From: Candidatus Gastranaerophilales bacterium
GTDB lineage: Bacteria > Cyanobacteriota > Vampirovibrionia > Gastranaerophilales > Gastranaerophilaceae
DNA length: 64,000 nucleotides
Assembly: GCA_944323265.1 (NCBI GenBank)
Contig: CALURX010000004.1
Coordinates: 1 to 64,000, forward strand
Reading direction: 5' to 3'
Shown here: positions 1,430 to 64,000 of the stretch, in pieces
Layout: each line of letters starts with the position of its first letter
How positions within the stretch are numbered: the first letter of the stretch is position 1
Made by a program: the position numbers and the translations under genes
Notes under the pieces: generated by a model
What the model was told of the DNA's origin: nothing
Database searches by the model: none
The model's input: only the letters and a program-made list of their open reading frames with translations

Positions 1430-1790
1430 CTATTTCAAAAGTTGACATTTCGTTAACTGCGTTAAATACAGCGCAATTGGCTTGATAAGCTGTTTGTGCC
1501 ATCTTGATATTGCAGGCATCTTGTACTGAATACCCATTTTCTAAAGCGGAAACCATTGCATTATCAAGAGCTTGAGCGGATTGTACGACATTATCTCCGA
1601 CATCAGTTAGCAAGTCTTCCGGACGTATATTTGAATAATAATTGCTTAAATCAACCTGCGAACTTGAAACATCTGAGCTGTCATAGGTTCTGGTTGTAGC
1701 AGCCTCAGGAGCATTTCTGCCGCTCGTTGCCTGCATGCTTTCCAATAAGCCGGAGTAAATGGAAGTATCGATTGATGATATTGAACTCAT
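1422..1790 (-). CDS. Small Ser-rich protein with an axial-protein-like C-terminus
   Basis: 122 residues with no signal peptide or membrane segment. The first half is Ser/Thr-rich and probably disordered. The last ~45 residues look helical, and the tail AQTAYQANCAVFNAVNEM resembles the C-terminal helix of flagellar rod/hook proteins such as FlgC, where AYQAN..V.N...EM is a recurrent pattern. It lacks the conserved N-terminal flagellar rod sequence, so it is not a complete FlgB/FlgC. The ribosome-binding site agagg precedes the ATG. FlhA and FliH are encoded elsewhere in the window, so a link to the flagellar axial proteins is possible. This is inference from a short match. Confidence 0.6.
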   Translation of the reverse strand: MSSISSIDTSIYSGLLESMQATSGRNAPEAATTRTYDSSDVSSSQVDLSNYYSNIRPEDLLTDVGDNVVQSAQALDNAMVSALENGYSVQDACNIKMAQTAYQANCAVFNAVNEMSTFEIAI

Positions 1791-1855
1791 AGTTAACCTC
1801 TATTATCAGTTTAACTCGTTTTTTTTGATTATGCAAGGGGTATATATACAATATG

Positions 1856-57348: not shown

Positions 57349-59439
57349 TTAATACCCGCTATTCTCTCCGATGGTGTCAACAGCTTCAACCTTAATATCC
57401 GTGATTAATTCAGAATAAGATATAACAACAATCGTCGGGATATGACGTTCAAGGAGCTGGTAAAGCGGAAGTCTGATTCTCGGCGAACATAATATAACCG
57501 GCTGTTGTCCAATAGCCTGATGCGCCCTCATAAGCGTCATTGCGGTTGATTCAATCAAATCCTGAACTTGCATTGGATTAAGCAGGAACATTGTACCAAG
57601 CTCAGTTCTTTGACAGCTGTCATCAAGAGTTTTTTCCCATTCAGGAGAAAGCGTTAGTGCGTACAGAACCTTATCTCTATCAACGTTGCTTAAACAAATC
57701 TGTCTTCCTAATGCGGCACGCAGACGCTCTGATAAGATATCCGGTTCTTTGGAGAATCTTGCATAATCACAAAGACGCTCAAATACAAATATGATATCCT
57801 TGATTGAAACCTTTTCTCTAATCAGGTTAACAAAAATCTTACGTAAATCTGATGTTGAAATAATTGCAGGAACAAGGTCATTAACGAGCGTCGGGTCTTG
57901 TGAACGGACAAGTTCCATAAGCTTAAGAACGTCTGTTTTTGTCATAACCTCATCAACGTGTTTTCTTACGCATTCCTGCAGGTGTGTAACAAGAACATCT
58001 GTTGCGTCAACTGCAGTAACGCTCTTCGCGGATTTAGCATCCTCCGGCGAAATCCAATAAGCTTGAGTTTGGTACGTAGGATCAACCCCGACAATAGCGT
58101 CTTCCGGAATCGTTTTCTTAACAGAATCCCACTGGTCTGCAATAACCATATACTTACCCGGATAAACATATCCTGATGCAACAACGTTATTACGTATAGA
58201 AATTACATACTCATTGGCCTCAAGGGCTGATGAGTCCATAATACGAATATTCGGGATAATATAACCCAACTCGTCTGTAACTCTCTGACGGAGAGCTGCA
58301 ATTTTTGCGAGTAATTGACCTTCCTGATCAGGGTCTGCAATAACAAGCAGGCCTGCACCGACTTGTAAACTTAAAACATCAACACCAAGTCTTTCGTACA
58401 TCTTATTCGGGTTAACCAAATCCTGCATATTCTGACGTACGCTTTCCAATTGTCCCAATTGAGACTGAACGTCTGCATTAACTAATACAGAGAAGCCTGC
58501 TATTGCAAGGATTATTGTAAACATTAAGAACGGCAGGAAGGGAAGTCCTGTTATTGGAGATGTTACCGTGATTAAGCCCAAAAACAGCGCTGCAAAAAAT
58601 AGTGAATACGGTTTGGACAGAATCTGGTTAGTTAAGTCGCCGCCCAATGAAGTATTCCCTGCAGAAGCACGTGTCATTACGATACCGGCTGCAATTGACA
58701 TTAAAAGAGACGGAAGCTGTGAGGCAAGACCATCACCAATTGTTAAGACTGTGTATTTGTTAACGGCATCGGCTATCGGCATCTGGTTTACAAGACATCC
58801 GATTGCCAAACCGCCTATAATGTTTATTAATACAATGATGATACCGGCAATAGTATCACCTTTTACGAACTTCATAGAACCGTCCATAGAACCGAAGAGG
58901 CTTGATTCTCTCTGCAAATCTTCACGTCTTTTTACAGCCTCTTCCGGAGAAATCAGTCCTGCGTTAAAGTCCGCGTCGATTGTCATCTGTTTACCGGGCA
59001 TAGCATCCAATGCAAAACGAGCTGCAACTTCTGCGATACGTTCGGCACCCTTTGTGATTACCATGAACTGTACAACCGTAATAATCAGGAAGATTACGCC
59101 GCCTACAATCATGTTACCGCCGGTTACAAATGTTCCGAATGCGTGGATAACCTCTCCGGCGTCGCCTTTTGCCAAGATAAGTCGTGTGGACGCGATTGAA
59201 AGTACAAGACGGAACATAGTTCCAAGAAGTATTATTGAAGGAAATGCCGCAAGTTCAAGAGGCTTTTGTACATAAAGAGATATCATCAATAGTACGATAC
59301 CAAGGGTAATGTTCAAGCTTATGGAAAAATTAATAACCCAATTTGGCATTTCGATAATGAGGATTAAAATCAATGTCATTACGAATAATGCCAGAAAAAT
59401 TTCACTTATTGGTTTATTATTTCCGCCTTCTGCTGCCAT
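57349..59439 (-). CDS. flhA: Flagellar export gate protein FlhA
   Basis: 696 residues, full length. Eight transmembrane helices in the N-terminal half include KGDAGEVIHAFGTFVTGGN (91-109) and MPIADAVNKYTVLTIGDGL (230-248). The FHIPEP-type cytoplasmic loop lies between them (RFALDAMPGKQMTIDADF, 141-158). The C-terminal cytoplasmic domain (about 340-690) holds the chaperone and substrate docking platform. Last gene of a minus-strand operon: FliG-like, FliH, FlhA-like fragment, FlhA. No FliI, FlhB or motor genes in the window. Confidence 0.96.
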   Translation of the reverse strand: MAAEGGNNKPISEIFLALFVMTLILILIIEMPNWVINFSISLNITLGIVLLMISLYVQKPLELAAFPSIILLGTMFRLVLSIASTRLILAKGDAGEVIHAFGTFVTGGNMIVGGVIFLIITVVQFMVITKGAERIAEVAARFALDAMPGKQMTIDADFNAGLISPEEAVKRREDLQRESSLFGSMDGSMKFVKGDTIAGIIIVLINIIGGLAIGCLVNQMPIADAVNKYTVLTIGDGLASQLPSLLMSIAAGIVMTRASAGNTSLGGDLTNQILSKPYSLFFAALFLGLITVTSPITGLPFLPFLMFTIILAIAGFSVLVNADVQSQLGQLESVRQNMQDLVNPNKMYERLGVDVLSLQVGAGLLVIADPDQEGQLLAKIAALRQRVTDELGYIIPNIRIMDSSALEANEYVISIRNNVVASGYVYPGKYMVIADQWDSVKKTIPEDAIVGVDPTYQTQAYWISPEDAKSAKSVTAVDATDVLVTHLQECVRKHVDEVMTKTDVLKLMELVRSQDPTLVNDLVPAIISTSDLRKIFVNLIREKVSIKDIIFVFERLCDYARFSKEPDILSERLRAALGRQICLSNVDRDKVLYALTLSPEWEKTLDDSCQRTELGTMFLLNPMQVQDLIESTAMTLMRAHQAIGQQPVILCSPRIRLPLYQLLERHIPTIVVISYSELITDIKVEAVDTIGENSGY

Positions 59440-59448
59440 TAAGTAAGC

Positions 59449-59898
59449 TTACACCCTCCTCTTTGAAACTATCATATAAGGAATCCATATACAAAATTCT
59501 AACAATGCCGTACAAATAGTCATGCCGGCCATTATAACCGTAAATTTTGCCATAGCGTCTGCTAACGGCATATTATAGCTTGAGTTATAAACCGTCAGAC
59601 AAAGCAAATAATTAAAACCAATTAGAATAATATCCAAAAGATTTGTTCCTAAGATTATTAATTTATCTTTTTTATTTAATAAAAATAAGCCAATTACTGT
59701 CAAAATTACTATTAACGAAATTAGAATTAAAGAATTAAAAATACCAACCAGTATATTACCGCAGCACAAAAAATTGCCTAAGTGATAAATCAAACTTCCT
59801 GCATCGCCTTTAAAAAAAGAACCGTACATAATAAGAACGATGAATATAAATTTTAATACTAGAAATGTATATAAAAATTTTTCTCTTTTTTCTACCAT
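59449..59898 (-). CDS. Truncated FlhA-like membrane protein
   Basis: 149 residues, four or five transmembrane helices. Two blocks match FlhA: KGDAGSLIYHLGNFLCCGN (30-48) against FlhA KGDAGEVIHAFGTFVTGGN, and NMPLADAMAKFTV (109-121) against FlhA QMPIADAVNKYTV. Between them about 59 residues are missing relative to FlhA, including the whole FHIPEP loop, and the large cytoplasmic domain is absent. It has its own ribosome-binding site (agaagga) and intact frame. It lies 9 bases before flhA and 3 bases after fliH. Either a relict tandem duplication or a gate accessory. Confidence 0.78.
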   Translation of the reverse strand: MVEKREKFLYTFLVLKFIFIVLIMYGSFFKGDAGSLIYHLGNFLCCGNILVGIFNSLILISLIVILTVIGLFLLNKKDKLIILGTNLLDIILIGFNYLLCLTVYNSSYNMPLADAMAKFTVIMAGMTICTALLEFCIWIPYMIVSKRRV

Positions 59899-59901
59899 AC
59901 T

Positions 59902-60666
59902 TTACATTCCTTCTAAAGCTTTCTTAATGATTTCCAGCTGAGTGTCAATTGACGCATCAACAATACCGTTGTTTGTCTGGAAAATGCATCCTCCGTCTTC
60001 TATTGAAGGGTCGGAGATTATATTTATTTTGGCCTCAATGCCGTATTGATAAGTTATGTTCGGAAGAGTATCTTTAATAAATTGAACGGCTTGCGGCTTG
60101 ACCCTTATATTGATTTTAGGCTCACTTTTGGAGACTGTTTTCAATACATCTATAATTGTATTTATAAGCACCTGCGGGTCACTTTCAACTTCTTTTTTGA
60201 TAATTTTCTTTGCAATATCAACGCTTATTTCAAGAATATCGGGAGCAATGTATTCGAAAACATCTTTTTTTGCGCTCATAAAGCCGGAGAATTGTTTCCG
60301 AAACTCGTCCAAGTCTTCCTTTGCTTCTTCAAGCCCTTTTCTGTACCCTTCTTCAAAAGCAGATTTTTTAATATTTTCGGCCTCTTCCTGCGCTCTTGAA
60401 ACTAGGTTTCTGTCATCAATTCTTCTGTAACCGCGCCTTCTGGAGCCTCTTCTGCGTTCCTGTCTCTGTGTAAAATCAATATTTTCAATATCAAATAAAT
60501 CAATCTCCGGCTCCGGAGGCGGCGGAGGTGCTTGCTGAACAACCGGTTCAGGCTGTACAATAGGAGCCTCTGATTCGGCAGGCTGAGGCGGAACTGCCGG
60601 TTCGGCAGCTTTTGCCGGAATACTTTTCCCCTCCCTTAATTTTTGCCTGTCCTTTTTTATTATCAT
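59902..60666 (-). CDS. fliH: FliH-like flagellar/type III export protein
   Basis: 254 residues. A Pro-rich N-terminus (about 15-50, with PPPPPEPEIDLFD) is followed by an Arg-rich stretch (RQERRRGSRRRGYRR, 68-82), a helical coiled region (about 85-150) and the C-terminal FliH/HrpE domain: ISVDIAKKIIKKEVESDP...SDPSIEDGGCIFQTNNGIVDASIDTQL. FliH regulates the FliI ATPase. Its basic stretch is unusual for the family. Position between a FliG-like gene and flhA supports the call. Confidence 0.85.
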   Translation of the reverse strand: MIIKKDRQKLREGKSIPAKAAEPAVPPQPAESEAPIVQPEPVVQQAPPPPPEPEIDLFDIENIDFTQRQERRRGSRRRGYRRIDDRNLVSRAQEEAENIKKSAFEEGYRKGLEEAKEDLDEFRKQFSGFMSAKKDVFEYIAPDILEISVDIAKKIIKKEVESDPQVLINTIIDVLKTVSKSEPKINIRVKPQAVQFIKDTLPNITYQYGIEAKINIISDPSIEDGGCIFQTNNGIVDASIDTQLEIIKKALEGM

Positions 60667-60674
60667 ATCTTATA

Positions 60675-61715
60675 TTATATACTTTCCTCAACGTATTGTG
60701 CAACAATACCGGCAACTCTAAGCGGTAATTCTGAAAACTCTCCGTCGTATGCCTGCGCAATAAACTTTTTAACCTTTGGACGTTCATTTTTTATAACACG
60801 CTCAATTTTTTCTCTTGGAACTTTGCGATAAATTCTTAACAAATCACCGAGAACATTTTCTTTTGTAAGTTTTCGTTTGATAGGCAGATACTCTTTCATC
60901 TCCTTAAGACAGTTTGTAATCAAATCACCGTCAATGTGAGATTCTAAATCAGCCATATTCATGTATTCGGAAATTGCAAGTGAATCATTAGAATCAAATT
61001 TATTTAAGATTGTTGTAACTTTGTCCTGTGAAAGAATTTTGAGAACAAGTGCTAGTGTCATCAGCTTCATCTGCTTATTGCTAATACCCTGCGGCATTGA
61101 AGCCTTTTGTTTTTCAAGCTTTCTTTGCTTTCTCTTTTCTTCTCTTCGTTTTTCAGCTTCGGCTTGATTTTTTTCGGATTCTTCAATTGCAGCCTGCTTT
61201 TGCCGCATCTGCTCTTCCTGAGCTTGTTTTGCCATTGCGTCAATATTTGATTGGCTCTCTGCTCTATTTTTTGTCTCTTCGTCAATTACACCTTTTTGTT
61301 GAAGCTCCTCAATGCTGGAGTTATAAACTTTTATAACATGGTGTTCTACTGCTTGCAGAAGCTGGTCTTGCGGAATTTTTCTAATAACGGCCTGTTTTGC
61401 AACCTCAAAGATTGTGAACGCAATCTTTTGCATGATGCTGTCCCAATACTGCGGGAGTATTCCGGAATGAATTAAATCGATTGATTTGTGGAACGACCAT
61501 TCTGCAATAATTTGGGTAATAAATACTGCCTGATCAACGGTAAGGTTAAGCTGAGTGTCGTTGTATAAAGCTTCTCCGGCAAGGAGTGTAAAATTCCCGA
61601 GAGTTTTTACAATGTACTCTTTTTCTCTATCCTGCAGGTCTTTGGGCACAAGCTCTTTTGCCTGTTCGGCCATTGATGCTGCAAAACCTTTATAATCAAA
61701 ACCTTCTATTGGCAT
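60675..61715 (-). CDS. FliG-like protein lacking the C-terminal torque domain
   Basis: 346 residues. A helical N-terminal part (1-135) and a highly charged coiled-coil (about 145-206) precede a C-terminal part resembling FliG_N and the start of FliG_M: LVLKILSQDKVTTILNKF, AISEYMNMADLESHIDGDLI, and VIKNERPKVKKFIAQ in place of FliG's LIKNEHPQTIALIL. No FliG_C (rotor torque) domain follows. Position just before fliH is where fliG normally stands. The assignment is by pattern and context and is not certain. Confidence 0.55.
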   Translation of the reverse strand: MPIEGFDYKGFAASMAEQAKELVPKDLQDREKEYIVKTLGNFTLLAGEALYNDTQLNLTVDQAVFITQIIAEWSFHKSIDLIHSGILPQYWDSIMQKIAFTIFEVAKQAVIRKIPQDQLLQAVEHHVIKVYNSSIEELQQKGVIDEETKNRAESQSNIDAMAKQAQEEQMRQKQAAIEESEKNQAEAEKRREEKRKQRKLEKQKASMPQGISNKQMKLMTLALVLKILSQDKVTTILNKFDSNDSLAISEYMNMADLESHIDGDLITNCLKEMKEYLPIKRKLTKENVLGDLLRIYRKVPREKIERVIKNERPKVKKFIAQAYDGEFSELPLRVAGIVAQYVEESI

Positions 61716-61814
61716 AAATTTTCCTTCCCAAGATATAATAATCCCTATTGTATTATACCTGCTTTATAGTGATGCTGCCTCATATAAGTTGATGATTTTG
61801 CAAGCCCCTGTTAA

Positions 61815-61842
61815 TTGACAATAATTTGTGGAATGCTACAAT
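61815..61842 (+). promoter_or_regulatory. Consensus sigma-70 promoter
   Basis: TTGACA (61815-61820), 16-base spacer, TACAAT (61837-61842); ribosome-binding site aaggag precedes the ATG at 61862. Confidence 0.75.
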
Positions 61843-61861
61843 AAAAATCTAAGGAGTAGAT

Positions 61862-62122
61862 ATGCAGATAAACAGAATAAACAGTCAGCCTAATTTCAAG
61901 GCGGTTAATCAAAAATACTTCGAGTGGGCGAAGAAGGATTATAATTTAACAAAAGATGTCTCCCTAGACTGGATTCAAAGATTAAGTTTTGATGTGTTTT
62001 TATTTAAAGAAATCTCTCGTAAGGATGCGATTGATACTGTAAACGCAGTTAAAAAATATATGAATAAAACGGATGAGTGCATGGAAGCTCTGCTTGAAAA
62101 TTTACGTAATCCTAATTCATAG
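61862..62122 (+). CDS. Small lineage-specific protein with N-terminal NFKA motif
   Basis: 86 residues. The N-terminus MQINRINSQPNFKAVNQ shows the motif shared with 51350 and 23657. The rest is helical and charged (KYFEWAKKDYNLTKD, AIDTVNAVKKYMNKTDE). No signal peptide. Strong consensus promoter and ribosome-binding site suggest high expression. Overlaps the convergent gene by 11 bases. Function unknown. Confidence 0.72.
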   Translation: MQINRINSQPNFKAVNQKYFEWAKKDYNLTKDVSLDWIQRLSFDVFLFKEISRKDAIDTVNAVKKYMNKTDECMEALLENLRNPNS

Positions 62123-62963
62123 CGTTGTTTACAATAGCTCCAGTAACAGCTCCAAGCCCCATGCCAACTAATGAGCCTGTAGGGCCGAGGTGTTTGGCGC
62201 CGATTGCACCGAGTACCCCTGTTGCGGCAAGGGTTGTCCCAAGTGTTACTGCAGACTTGCCGGCTTCTTCAAAGAAATTTTTGCCATTAGATACCTCATG
62301 CGCCACATGCGCAGCCTCAATTCCTCCAAGTGCCAATGCACCAAGCTTTGATGTTCGAATTAATGCTCGCGCAGTTATATCTGCAAATGGATTTGAAGTC
62401 TCAAAAACCTTTGCAGGAACAAATTTAGGGTTTTTAGCTGTATAATCTATTTGTTTTATATTAGTTTGTATTTTACTTTCTTCAATATTAAACTTCTTTT
62501 TAATCCAATTTCCCAGCTTTGTATCCCAAAGGGTTTTATCTTGTTTAATAAACCATGCGGCGAGCTTCGGGTGCGGACATTTCGGGGACAGAGGGTTCAT
62601 ATACTCGTGCAGAATCGTACCTCTAAAGAATGAAAACGGATGCTGTGCGATTTTGTTGTCATAACCTTCATGGAATGTAACAGGCTTTGGGAATCCTTTT
62701 CTTATCTGGTCATAGGCGCTGAACACATCATTCAATTCTTCCGGCCCGTTCAGGATTGCAAGCGAGACCAAGCCCATCGCCGGAGTATAATCCTTTTCGG
62801 CAAGTTTGTCCGAAATCTCGTTGACTTTGCCGTAAAAAGGAATCGCATCTGACATGACGGAGTCTTCATCCGCACCGAGAGCAGACTTCACGGAGTTATA
62901 ATCCTTAGCAACGTCTGGAAATTTTGCTGCCTGATATTGATAAAACACCGGGCTTATTGACAT
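62112..62963 (-). CDS. Lineage-specific protein with Gly-rich hydrophobic C-terminus
   Basis: 283 residues from ATG 62963, chosen because gaaagg precedes it. The longer frame to 63026 runs through the promoter. N-terminus MSISPVFYQYQAAKFPDVAKDY; the middle contains HEGYDNKIAQHPFSFFRGTI and PKCPHPKLAAWFIKQD; the C-terminal ~75 residues are Ala/Gly-rich and hydrophobic (VGMGLGAVTGAIVNNAMN), suited to membrane insertion. Promoter of the shared design. Function unknown. Confidence 0.7.
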   Translation of the reverse strand: MSISPVFYQYQAAKFPDVAKDYNSVKSALGADEDSVMSDAIPFYGKVNEISDKLAEKDYTPAMGLVSLAILNGPEELNDVFSAYDQIRKGFPKPVTFHEGYDNKIAQHPFSFFRGTILHEYMNPLSPKCPHPKLAAWFIKQDKTLWDTKLGNWIKKKFNIEESKIQTNIKQIDYTAKNPKFVPAKVFETSNPFADITARALIRTSKLGALALGGIEAAHVAHEVSNGKNFFEEAGKSAVTLGTTLAATGVLGAIGAKHLGPTGSLVGMGLGAVTGAIVNNAMN

Positions 62964-62993
62964 TATACACCTTTCACACTTGTTAATATATTT

Positions 62994-63026
62994 ATATAAA
63001 GTATTTTTGTAATGATAAATTGACAA
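62994..63026 (-). promoter_or_regulatory. Shared-design promoter, copy 4
   Basis: On the minus strand: TTGTCAATTT (63017-63026), 17 bases between the -35 hexamer position and TACTTT (62998-63003), continuing TATATAAAT and, after a short insertion, acaagtgtg. It matches copy 3 over most of its length. Confidence 0.65.
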
Positions 63027-63055
63027 AATATTACTAAATGTAAATGTCGAAAATA

Positions 63056-63916
63056 TTAATATTCGTTTTTAATAGAGGCACCAACAAATAATTTGCCGGC
63101 ATAAAAGTTTACGCAAATTCCTTCGCCCTTATACCACGAGGGCAGCGGCGCAAATGGAGATGATTTTTCTATTGCAGCAAGAGCGGCGGCGTCAAGTTTC
63201 TGGTTTCCGGAAGACTTGATGATTTTTAAATCTGTAACCTCACCTCTTTTATTAATATTGAAACTAAGTGTTACTTTCTGAGTCTCAGAAACATTGTTTA
63301 TTACAAGATTTGGTCTGACTTTTCTCTGTAACCCTCTCATATAATAACCCCAATCGTAGGTTTTTGCTTGGGCAGGGCTTGCGGATTCTGCTGCCTGATC
63401 CTGAGATTTTGGGAAGAAGCTAAATCCGCAGAATAGAAGTCCGCATATTATTAAAAAAATTGAGATAGGTTTTCTGTTAAAGATTTTTTTTGAAAATATT
63501 ATAATCATTGGTACAAGAAATATGTAAATTCCGAAAAGAATATATAAGACTAGCCGAATTTTTTGTGCTGTTATACTAAAATCATATCCGGCAGGGTGAA
63601 GTTCGTTTCTAATTAGAGCTGCTACATAAAGCATGTTCAGCGTAATTCCTGTAATAAATAGGATAACTCCTGCTATAGCGAATTTTTTCTGTGATTTTTG
63701 AAAATCTTGAACAGATTTATATTCTTTTTTCTCCATAGCCCATTCGTTTCCTTTGTATCCGAAATAAACAGAGAGCACAAAGGAGATAAAGCTTCCGACA
63801 TAAGGTATCAACGATAGTGGCAGCTGCCATAATGTTACGTAAGATTTGTGGAACAGCCCCCAAATCCATCCAAGTAAACACGCACCCCAGTTAAACTTTT
63901 CTTTTTCTTCCATCAT
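63056..63916 (-). CDS. Membrane protein with TonB-like C-terminal domain
   Basis: About 286 residues. The N-terminal part (FNWGACLLGWIWGLFHKSY, GYKGNEWAMEKKEY) resembles DUF2628-type cytoplasmic/membrane domains; three or four transmembrane helices follow (about 25-55, 78-95, 115-135, 148-166). The C-terminal ~85 residues look like a TonB_C energy-transducer domain (VTLSFNINKRGEVTDLKIIKSSGNQKLDAAALAAIEKSSPF). No ExbB/ExbD is nearby. ATG 63916 (gaaagga upstream) is preferred to 63931. Confidence 0.75.
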   Translation of the reverse strand: MMEEKEKFNWGACLLGWIWGLFHKSYVTLWQLPLSLIPYVGSFISFVLSVYFGYKGNEWAMEKKEYKSVQDFQKSQKKFAIAGVILFITGITLNMLYVAALIRNELHPAGYDFSITAQKIRLVLYILFGIYIFLVPMIIIFSKKIFNRKPISIFLIICGLLFCGFSFFPKSQDQAAESASPAQAKTYDWGYYMRGLQRKVRPNLVINNVSETQKVTLSFNINKRGEVTDLKIIKSSGNQKLDAAALAAIEKSSPFAPLPSWYKGEGICVNFYAGKLFVGASIKNEY

Positions 63917-63949
63917 GTATCCTTTCTTCAACTTCTCAACCCTTTACCC

Positions 63950-64000
63950 CTATCCTTCAATCCAGCTTCTGATTCGTTCTCCTGCTTCTGCTTCATCAAC
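63950..64000 (-). CDS. C-terminal end of a gene continuing past the window
   Basis: The minus strand is open from the window edge and ends DEAEAGERIRSWIEG-stop. The composition suits a real C-terminus, and the spacing to the next start is 33 bases. Only 16 residues are visible, so the product cannot be named. Confidence 0.45.
   Translation of the reverse strand, partial: VDEAEAGERIRSWIEG

Follow-up and report, generated by a model that had tools for sequence, protein, structure and literature searches.

In flagella and in type III secretion, FlhA is the motor protein driven by protons, and the locus described here raises the question of what a gene for a miniature FlhA-like protein might be doing between fliH and a full-length flhA gene. 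The original prediction, made on the window (the whole stretch of 64,000 nucleotides analysed, from a Gastranaerophilales genome), saw in this gene either a decayed tandem copy of flhA or an accessory that enters the FlhA ring and alters the export gate.

Position of the gene at the fliH-flhA junction

The genes and sites at this junction are the following:
59449 to 59898, reverse strand: mini-FlhA gene, 149 aa, with four predicted TM helices corresponding to FlhA TM3-TM6 without the FHIPEP loop
59902 to 60666, reverse strand: fliH, 254 aa
57349 to 59439, reverse strand: flhA1, 696 aa, a divergent FlhA (FHIPEP 724 bits; TIGR01398 700 bits, below the cut-off of 772)
59908 to 59913, reverse strand: GAAGGA, Shine-Dalgarno-like sequence for mini-FlhA, within the 3' end of fliH
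59455 to 59460, reverse strand: AGGAGG, Shine-Dalgarno-like site for flhA1, within the last codons of mini-FlhA
60675 to 61715, reverse strand: 346-aa gene at the fliG position, with no Pfam family over the cut-off

The frame from 59449 to 59898 is intact and starts with an ATG, and both fliH and flhA1, which flank it on a contig of 69.6 kb, are intact as well. Only 3 nt separate the fliH stop from the mini-FlhA ATG and 9 nt the mini-FlhA stop from the flhA1 ATG, so that the original prediction was right in describing an intact frame with its own ribosome-binding site and tight spacing; the mini-FlhA gene is, in fact, spaced for translation together with flhA1. As far as the window sequence can tell, this copy carries no hint of decay. 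The end of the window fliH (EGM followed by the stop) resembles the fliH tails of relatives, where the same tail lies directly 5' of flhA, and mini-FlhA starts 3 nt further on. In most of the relatives checked the fliH stop and the flhA start overlap as TAATG, while the spacer is short in a few and longer in two of the genus. The window copy alone was seen to occupy the precise junction of fliH with flhA: close relatives have no orthologue at this position, an outcome that the original prediction named as counting against itself, and the other two carriers of the genus have theirs elsewhere.

The product of the neighbouring gene at 60675-61715 is a FliG that has diverged strongly or else a protein that has taken the place of FliG, and its N-terminal part is like that of a fusion protein with the FlhA cytoplasmic domain encoded elsewhere in the genome.

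Homology to FlhA

Two blocks are common to mini-FlhA and the adjacent FlhA:
59743 to 59811, reverse strand: KGDAG-x2-I-x3-G-x-F-x3-GN-x2-VG block, mini-FlhA residues 30-52, common to FlhA 91-113
59524 to 59571, reverse strand: MPLADAMAKFTVIMAG block, mini-FlhA residues 110-125, common to FlhA 220-235

As had been predicted for this small protein, both blocks align with the adjacent FlhA by BLASTP, the KGDAG block over residues 30-65 (FlhA 91-128, E 1e-5) and the MPLADAM block over residues 110-147 (FlhA 220-257, E 1e-3). The spacing of 80 residues between blocks given for mini-FlhA stands, but the second FlhA block, placed at 230-240, actually lies at 220-230, ten residues earlier, and the FlhA spacing is therefore 129 residues and not 139. 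The form MPxADAxxKY characterises FlhAs of the divergent FlhA1 type, unlike the canonical FlhA of the same genome. A profile-profile comparison of seven mini-FlhAs with ten FlhAs (hhalign) gave a probability of 98.5% and an E of 1.9e-15, matching mini-FlhA residues 15-131 to the TM3-TM6 region of FlhA with the FHIPEP loop gapped out and both blocks covered in order. This agrees with the earlier view that the FHIPEP loop and the cytoplasmic domain are missing.

Such matches might reflect no more than a chance resemblance between hydrophobic proteins, and the 149-aa window protein alone, in fact, has no FHIPEP (PF00771) match in Pfam and only a weak one to SctV (0.015); the profile search by which the original prediction could be judged thus fell short for the single protein and succeeded for its relatives and in hhalign. 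The relative in G004 matches SctV at 3.6e-7, and that in G249 matches Pfam FHIPEP at 7.3e-9 with 35.1 bits, over the cut-off of 29.1. Moreover, none of 500 shuffles that kept local composition reached the real score against FlhA1 (window protein and seven relatives), and a profile built from three mini-FlhAs matched 376 of the 383 genomes of the order, nearly always in FlhA, in the two blocks and mostly at E 1e-5 to 1e-8. The profile-profile match, the shuffles and the Pfam and NCBIfam matches of relatives refute a chance resemblance, which we consider most improbable, and as judged by sequence comparison the homology of mini-FlhA to FlhA is settled.

Searches of Pfam, NCBIfam, PADLOC and PHROGs with the single 149-aa protein returned nothing useful. 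A weak match of the single protein to DUF2569 (0.13) was set aside, as the family as a whole is matched much better by FlhA profiles. Foldseek found no structural match in the PDB, in a library that reaches to April 2026 (the paper on the FlhA membrane-domain structure is of June 2026), and an AlphaFold2 model built from three sequences was weak, with a pLDDT of 65.

Residues kept and lost

Four stretches of mini-FlhA are hydrophobic, and its positive charges are found in the middle loop and at both termini, a pattern that under the positive-inside rule would place both shared motifs on the periplasmic side. TM1-2, TM7-8, the FHIPEP loop and the cytoplasmic domain are all missing from its 149 residues. 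Although family members are no more than about 30% identical to the window protein, 17 positions are invariant across seven mini-FlhAs. Two of the family-invariant residues, mapped through E. coli FlhA, deserve a closer description:
59851 to 59853, reverse strand: Lys16, at the site of Arg85 in E. coli/Salmonella FlhA
59632 to 59634, reverse strand: Asp89, four residues (one helical turn) past the FlhA Asp208 site

In the FlhA structure, reported in a 2026 preprint, the Arg85-Asp208 salt bridge is the centre of the proton path, and the core of TM2-TM6 is decorated by TM1 and TM7-8 of neighbours (PMC13308203); in Salmonella, the FlhA substitutions R94A, D208A and D249A are dominant negative (PMC3139655). 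The proton-path set of Arg85, Asp208, Asp249 and Gln254 is not present in mini-FlhA. The Arg94 site holds an invariant tyrosine in mini-FlhAs, which keep Asn219 and the Gly/Phe/Gly-Asn loop residues, while the Asp249 and Gln254 sites are variable and these residues are lost. The aligned segments do not reach the sites of Asn137, Arg147, Arg154, Asp158, Asp199, Lys203 and Asp208, most of which belong to the missing loop.

Distribution and evolution of the family

The family is sporadic, being found in nine of several hundred genomes of the Gastranaerophilales, which are gut-dwelling relatives of cyanobacteria: the window genome (G000), G004, G030, G249, G356, G381, G293, G279 and G168, with the G356 member frameshifted and the G168 member truncated. 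By genus, carriers number 3 of 65 genomes in g1, 3 of 46 in g36 and 2 of 23 in g43; the other matches listed in these genera are FlhA. No mini-FlhA was found outside the family among 382 genomes of the class, and no relatives were found in IMG/VR, plasmids or phages. A contig scan yielded nothing beyond the two known relatives of the same genus, which have 256 and 257 aa, 37-38% identity and a C-terminal DUF805 domain. This domain (PF05656) is present in four intact members (G004, G030, G249 and G381), and DUF805-like C-terminal sequence also follows in the frameshifted G356 copy, in another frame; it is absent from the window protein, as judged by Pfam, and from G279 and G293. All genomes are draft assemblies, probably metagenome-assembled, and contig edges and absences therefore carry some uncertainty.

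Members are AT-rich, with a GC content of 24-29% against a window mean of 37.7% and 38-42% in neighbouring genes. The two closest pairs have a dN/dS of about 0.22-0.23, in line with the working gene favoured by the original prediction, and these sequence data indicate that the family is fast-evolving and under purifying selection. In G000, G004 and G030, FlhA1 is 96-97% identical whereas the mini-FlhAs are 34-48% identical, so that there is no sign of tight co-evolution. G279 and G293 have practically the same FlhA1 (dS 0.25) but mini-FlhAs that are only 75% identical (dS 0.69); between G030 and G249, which belong to different genera, mini-FlhA dS (1.0) is lower than FlhA1 dS (1.72). These divergence patterns fit horizontal movement.

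Mini-FlhA might also be taken for a decayed tandem duplicate of the adjacent flhA, to which it is similar and which it adjoins. The window protein is about 34-38% identical to the dispersed family over the full domain, closer than to its neighbour flhA, and some of these closer relatives lie in other genera; its frame is intact, the FHIPEP loop is missing in all members, and the tree unites all mini-FlhAs in a single clan (100% support) well away from FlhA1. The shared loss of the loop and the single clan refute this half of the original prediction, and we regard such an origin as very improbable. Placement nearer FlhA1 than FlhA2 is not significant by tree (AU p 0.22 for an origin nearer FlhA2), and the KGDAG and MPxxDAxxKY motifs of mini-FlhAs are FlhA1-like.

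An integration hotspot at tRNA-Leu(GAG)

Six relatives lie just downstream of tRNA-Leu(GAG), and a seventh adjoins a copy of the tRNA 3' end. In G004, G168, G279 and G293 the distance is 21-582 nt. In G249 the contig end truncates the tRNA; mini-FlhA lies about 490 nt past it, and between the two there is another copy of the tRNA 3' end. In G356 the contig starts at an edge reading like the tRNA 3' end, and mini-FlhA adjoins a LemA-like neighbour, the same gene that follows tRNA-Leu in G161. The seventh, in G030, is 13 nt from a 241-bp repeat ending in the tRNA 3' end and CCA, two copies of which flank a Type IIG restriction-methylation gene. No tRNA was found within the 12.4-kb contig of G381, and neither tRNA-Leu nor an att-like copy of its 3' end in the 13.6 kb surrounding the window copy. 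Where this tRNA has no mini-FlhA behind it, its downstream neighbours vary: an att-like copy with a tyrosine recombinase in the window genome, and elsewhere Fic/RhuM, BRO, addiction-module or transposase-like genes, or immediately the native M23 peptidase gene. These placements show that the usual home of mini-FlhA is an integration hotspot, to which the window copy is the exception, and strongly imply horizontal mobility of the family. The flgBC neighbourhood in G279 and G293 was considered as a flagellar link and rejected, as the tRNA-Leu(GAG) gene lying in between accounts for it better.

A repeated element of about 100-240 bp ending in the tRNA-Leu(GAG) 3' end lies beside the tRNA or flanks cargo in several genomes, and is perhaps an attachment element for single-gene cassettes:
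L036, 1289 to 1529 and 4784 to 5024: tRNA-3'-end repeated element
L119, about 340 to 465: tRNA-3'-end repeated element
L116, about 1590 to 1793 (reverse strand): tRNA-3'-end repeated element

We also note that the proteins encoded at window 63056-63931, adjoining fliF, and at L042:8899-9354, between tRNA-Leu and mini-FlhA in G279, have in common an N-terminal stretch resembling FNWGAxLLGWIWGLFxxSYVTL; the latter has no Pfam match.

Mini-FlhA might be selfish or near-neutral cargo, hitch-hiking with tRNA-Leu integration and being lost, with no function for the host. The small number of carriers, the frameshifted and truncated copies in G356 and G168 and the AT-rich composition are all consistent with this. 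The low dN/dS of the two closest pairs, the 17 invariant residues and the intact, operon-coupled window copy argue against it, however, and we think it unlikely.

A stronger alternative is that mini-FlhA has been exapted as a free-standing four-helix membrane protein, with or without DUF805, that works alone, for example as a proton- or ion-permeable effector or sensor in defence-like tRNA islands, its place at flhA being a relocation accident that supplied a promoter and a ribosome-binding site. Seven of the eight other members lie at the hotspot or at a 3'-end copy, off export operons, one of them adjoining the Type IIG restriction gene, and the buried charge pair is conserved while mini-FlhA diverges and FlhA1 does not. 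On the other hand, the FlhA-type periplasmic motifs are kept in spite of divergence elsewhere, the window copy sits exactly in the operon with coupled spacing, and no PADLOC or PHROGs family matches.

Which export system the window copy belongs to

The window genome has two FlhA systems:
window 57349 to 64000 and the contig beyond (L048): FlhA1 with fliE, fliF and fliH
L054, 5621 to 10677: canonical fliP-fliQ-fliR-flhB-flhA2

The FlhA2 of the second locus is canonical (TIGR01398 855 bits, cut-off 772). Almost all genomes in a sample of 60 from the order have FlhA1 and a divergent FliP; canonical FliP/FlhA and flagellin are found in the window genome and in deep families, and flagellin is absent from all 37 other genomes of the family Gastranaerophilaceae. 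Such genomes were recorded earlier as having incomplete flagella sets (PMC4040986, PMC5877343). The FlhA1 type persists without flagellin, so the window mini-FlhA stands in a flagellin-independent export system. FlhA1 is present in eight carriers and is the only full-length FlhA in G293, G279 and G381; in the remaining carrier, G168, only canonical FlhA was found and mini-FlhA is truncated, a single case that fits dependence of mini-FlhA on FlhA1. Beyond what had been predicted, then, the family has its home at the tRNA-Leu(GAG) hotspot and is often fused to DUF805, and the flhA1 beside the window copy belongs to a second, flagellin-independent system.

Two further proteins carry the FlhA cytoplasmic domain:
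L136, 1290 to 2786 (G000:C44), with equivalents in L093, L094, L098, L100 and L102: protein of 490-510 aa
L135, 2697 to 5684 (G000:C17): 995-aa fusion protein

In the former, which almost none of the searched genomes of the order lack, the domain follows a small N-terminal domain and a probable coiled coil, with no membrane part; in the latter, a part like the 346-aa protein at 60675-61715 and two hydrophobic stretches precede it. It seems that these genomes have split FlhA into modules that can be used again.

Possible role at the export gate

The reading that we put forward, with a probability of roughly 35%, is that mini-FlhA mimics FlhA as a mobile protein and so tunes or poisons the export gate; we hold a free-standing role in the membrane to be about equally likely. 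From the core of the FlhA protomer, mini-FlhA keeps helices and periplasmic loops, with the buried Lys16-Asp89 pair near the Arg85-Asp208 site; it lacks the FHIPEP cup and charged ring, Asp249 and Gln254, the helices packing against neighbouring subunits and the substrate-docking domain. It would most likely pack against FlhA1 or the gate and alter proton-coupled gating or the assembly of the FlhA ring, as a brake or poison subunit in the manner of the dominant-negative Salmonella FlhA point mutants, and would itself export nothing. It is the residue losses, together with the published structure and mutants (PMC13308203, PMC3139655), that lead us to infer a non-exporting mimic with a rewired charge pair, and the operon position of the window copy, the retained motifs and the co-occurrence with FlhA1 favour the mimic. 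Against it, only one of the nine members lies in an export operon. In addition, TM1, TM2, TM7 and TM8, which according to the structure paper are core or subunit-bridging helices, are missing, so that entry into the ring may be impossible. The lack of tight co-evolution with FlhA1, the tree's tolerance of an origin nearer FlhA2 and the weak AlphaFold model also speak against the mimic. A more specific idea, which we rate as somewhat less probable, is that a core mimic borne by a mobile element enters the FlhA basket, or sits next to it, and so controls the type III export gate.

The coupling of proton flow to export by FlhA has become structurally accessible only recently, and mini-FlhA offers a natural minimal construct with which to ask whether the core alone can bind, conduct protons or poison the ring. 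It shows that part of an export gate can escape into mobile DNA, and indicates that a second export system, independent of flagellin, is widespread in gut Vampirovibrionia, for which papers record only incomplete flagella. If the more specific idea holds, mini-FlhA would be a natural, transmissible modulator of a secretion motor made from that motor's own proton-conducting core, with Lys-Asp replacing Arg85-Asp208.

Comparison with known systems

With FlhA/SctV (FHIPEP, PF00771) mini-FlhA shares the TM3-TM6 core, the KGDAG..G.F...GN and MPxxDA..K loops, a basic residue at the Arg85 site and the Asn219 equivalent. It differs in having 149 aa against about 700, in its sporadic, mobile-looking distribution and in lacking TM1-2, TM7-8, the FHIPEP cup, the charged ring, Asp208, Asp249, Gln254 and the cytoplasmic domain; the combination of eight TM helices, FHIPEP loop and cytoplasmic nonamer domain is thus not found in it. 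DUF805 proteins (PF05656), of unknown function, share the C-terminal domain of four intact members, whereas the FlhA-like N-terminal domain of mini-FlhA lies outside DUF805. Like tRNA-associated islands and cassettes, the family shows insertion downstream of tRNA-Leu(GAG) and duplicated tRNA 3' ends, and the window genome has a tyrosine recombinase at this tRNA; the window copy differs in that it lies in an export operon and that no tRNA end was found next to it. Finally, FlhX is a stand-alone homologue of the FlhB C-terminal domain and, like mini-FlhA, an example of a gate-protein fragment maintained as a gene of its own, although FlhX is a piece of the soluble domain of FlhB and mini-FlhA a piece of the membrane core of FlhA.
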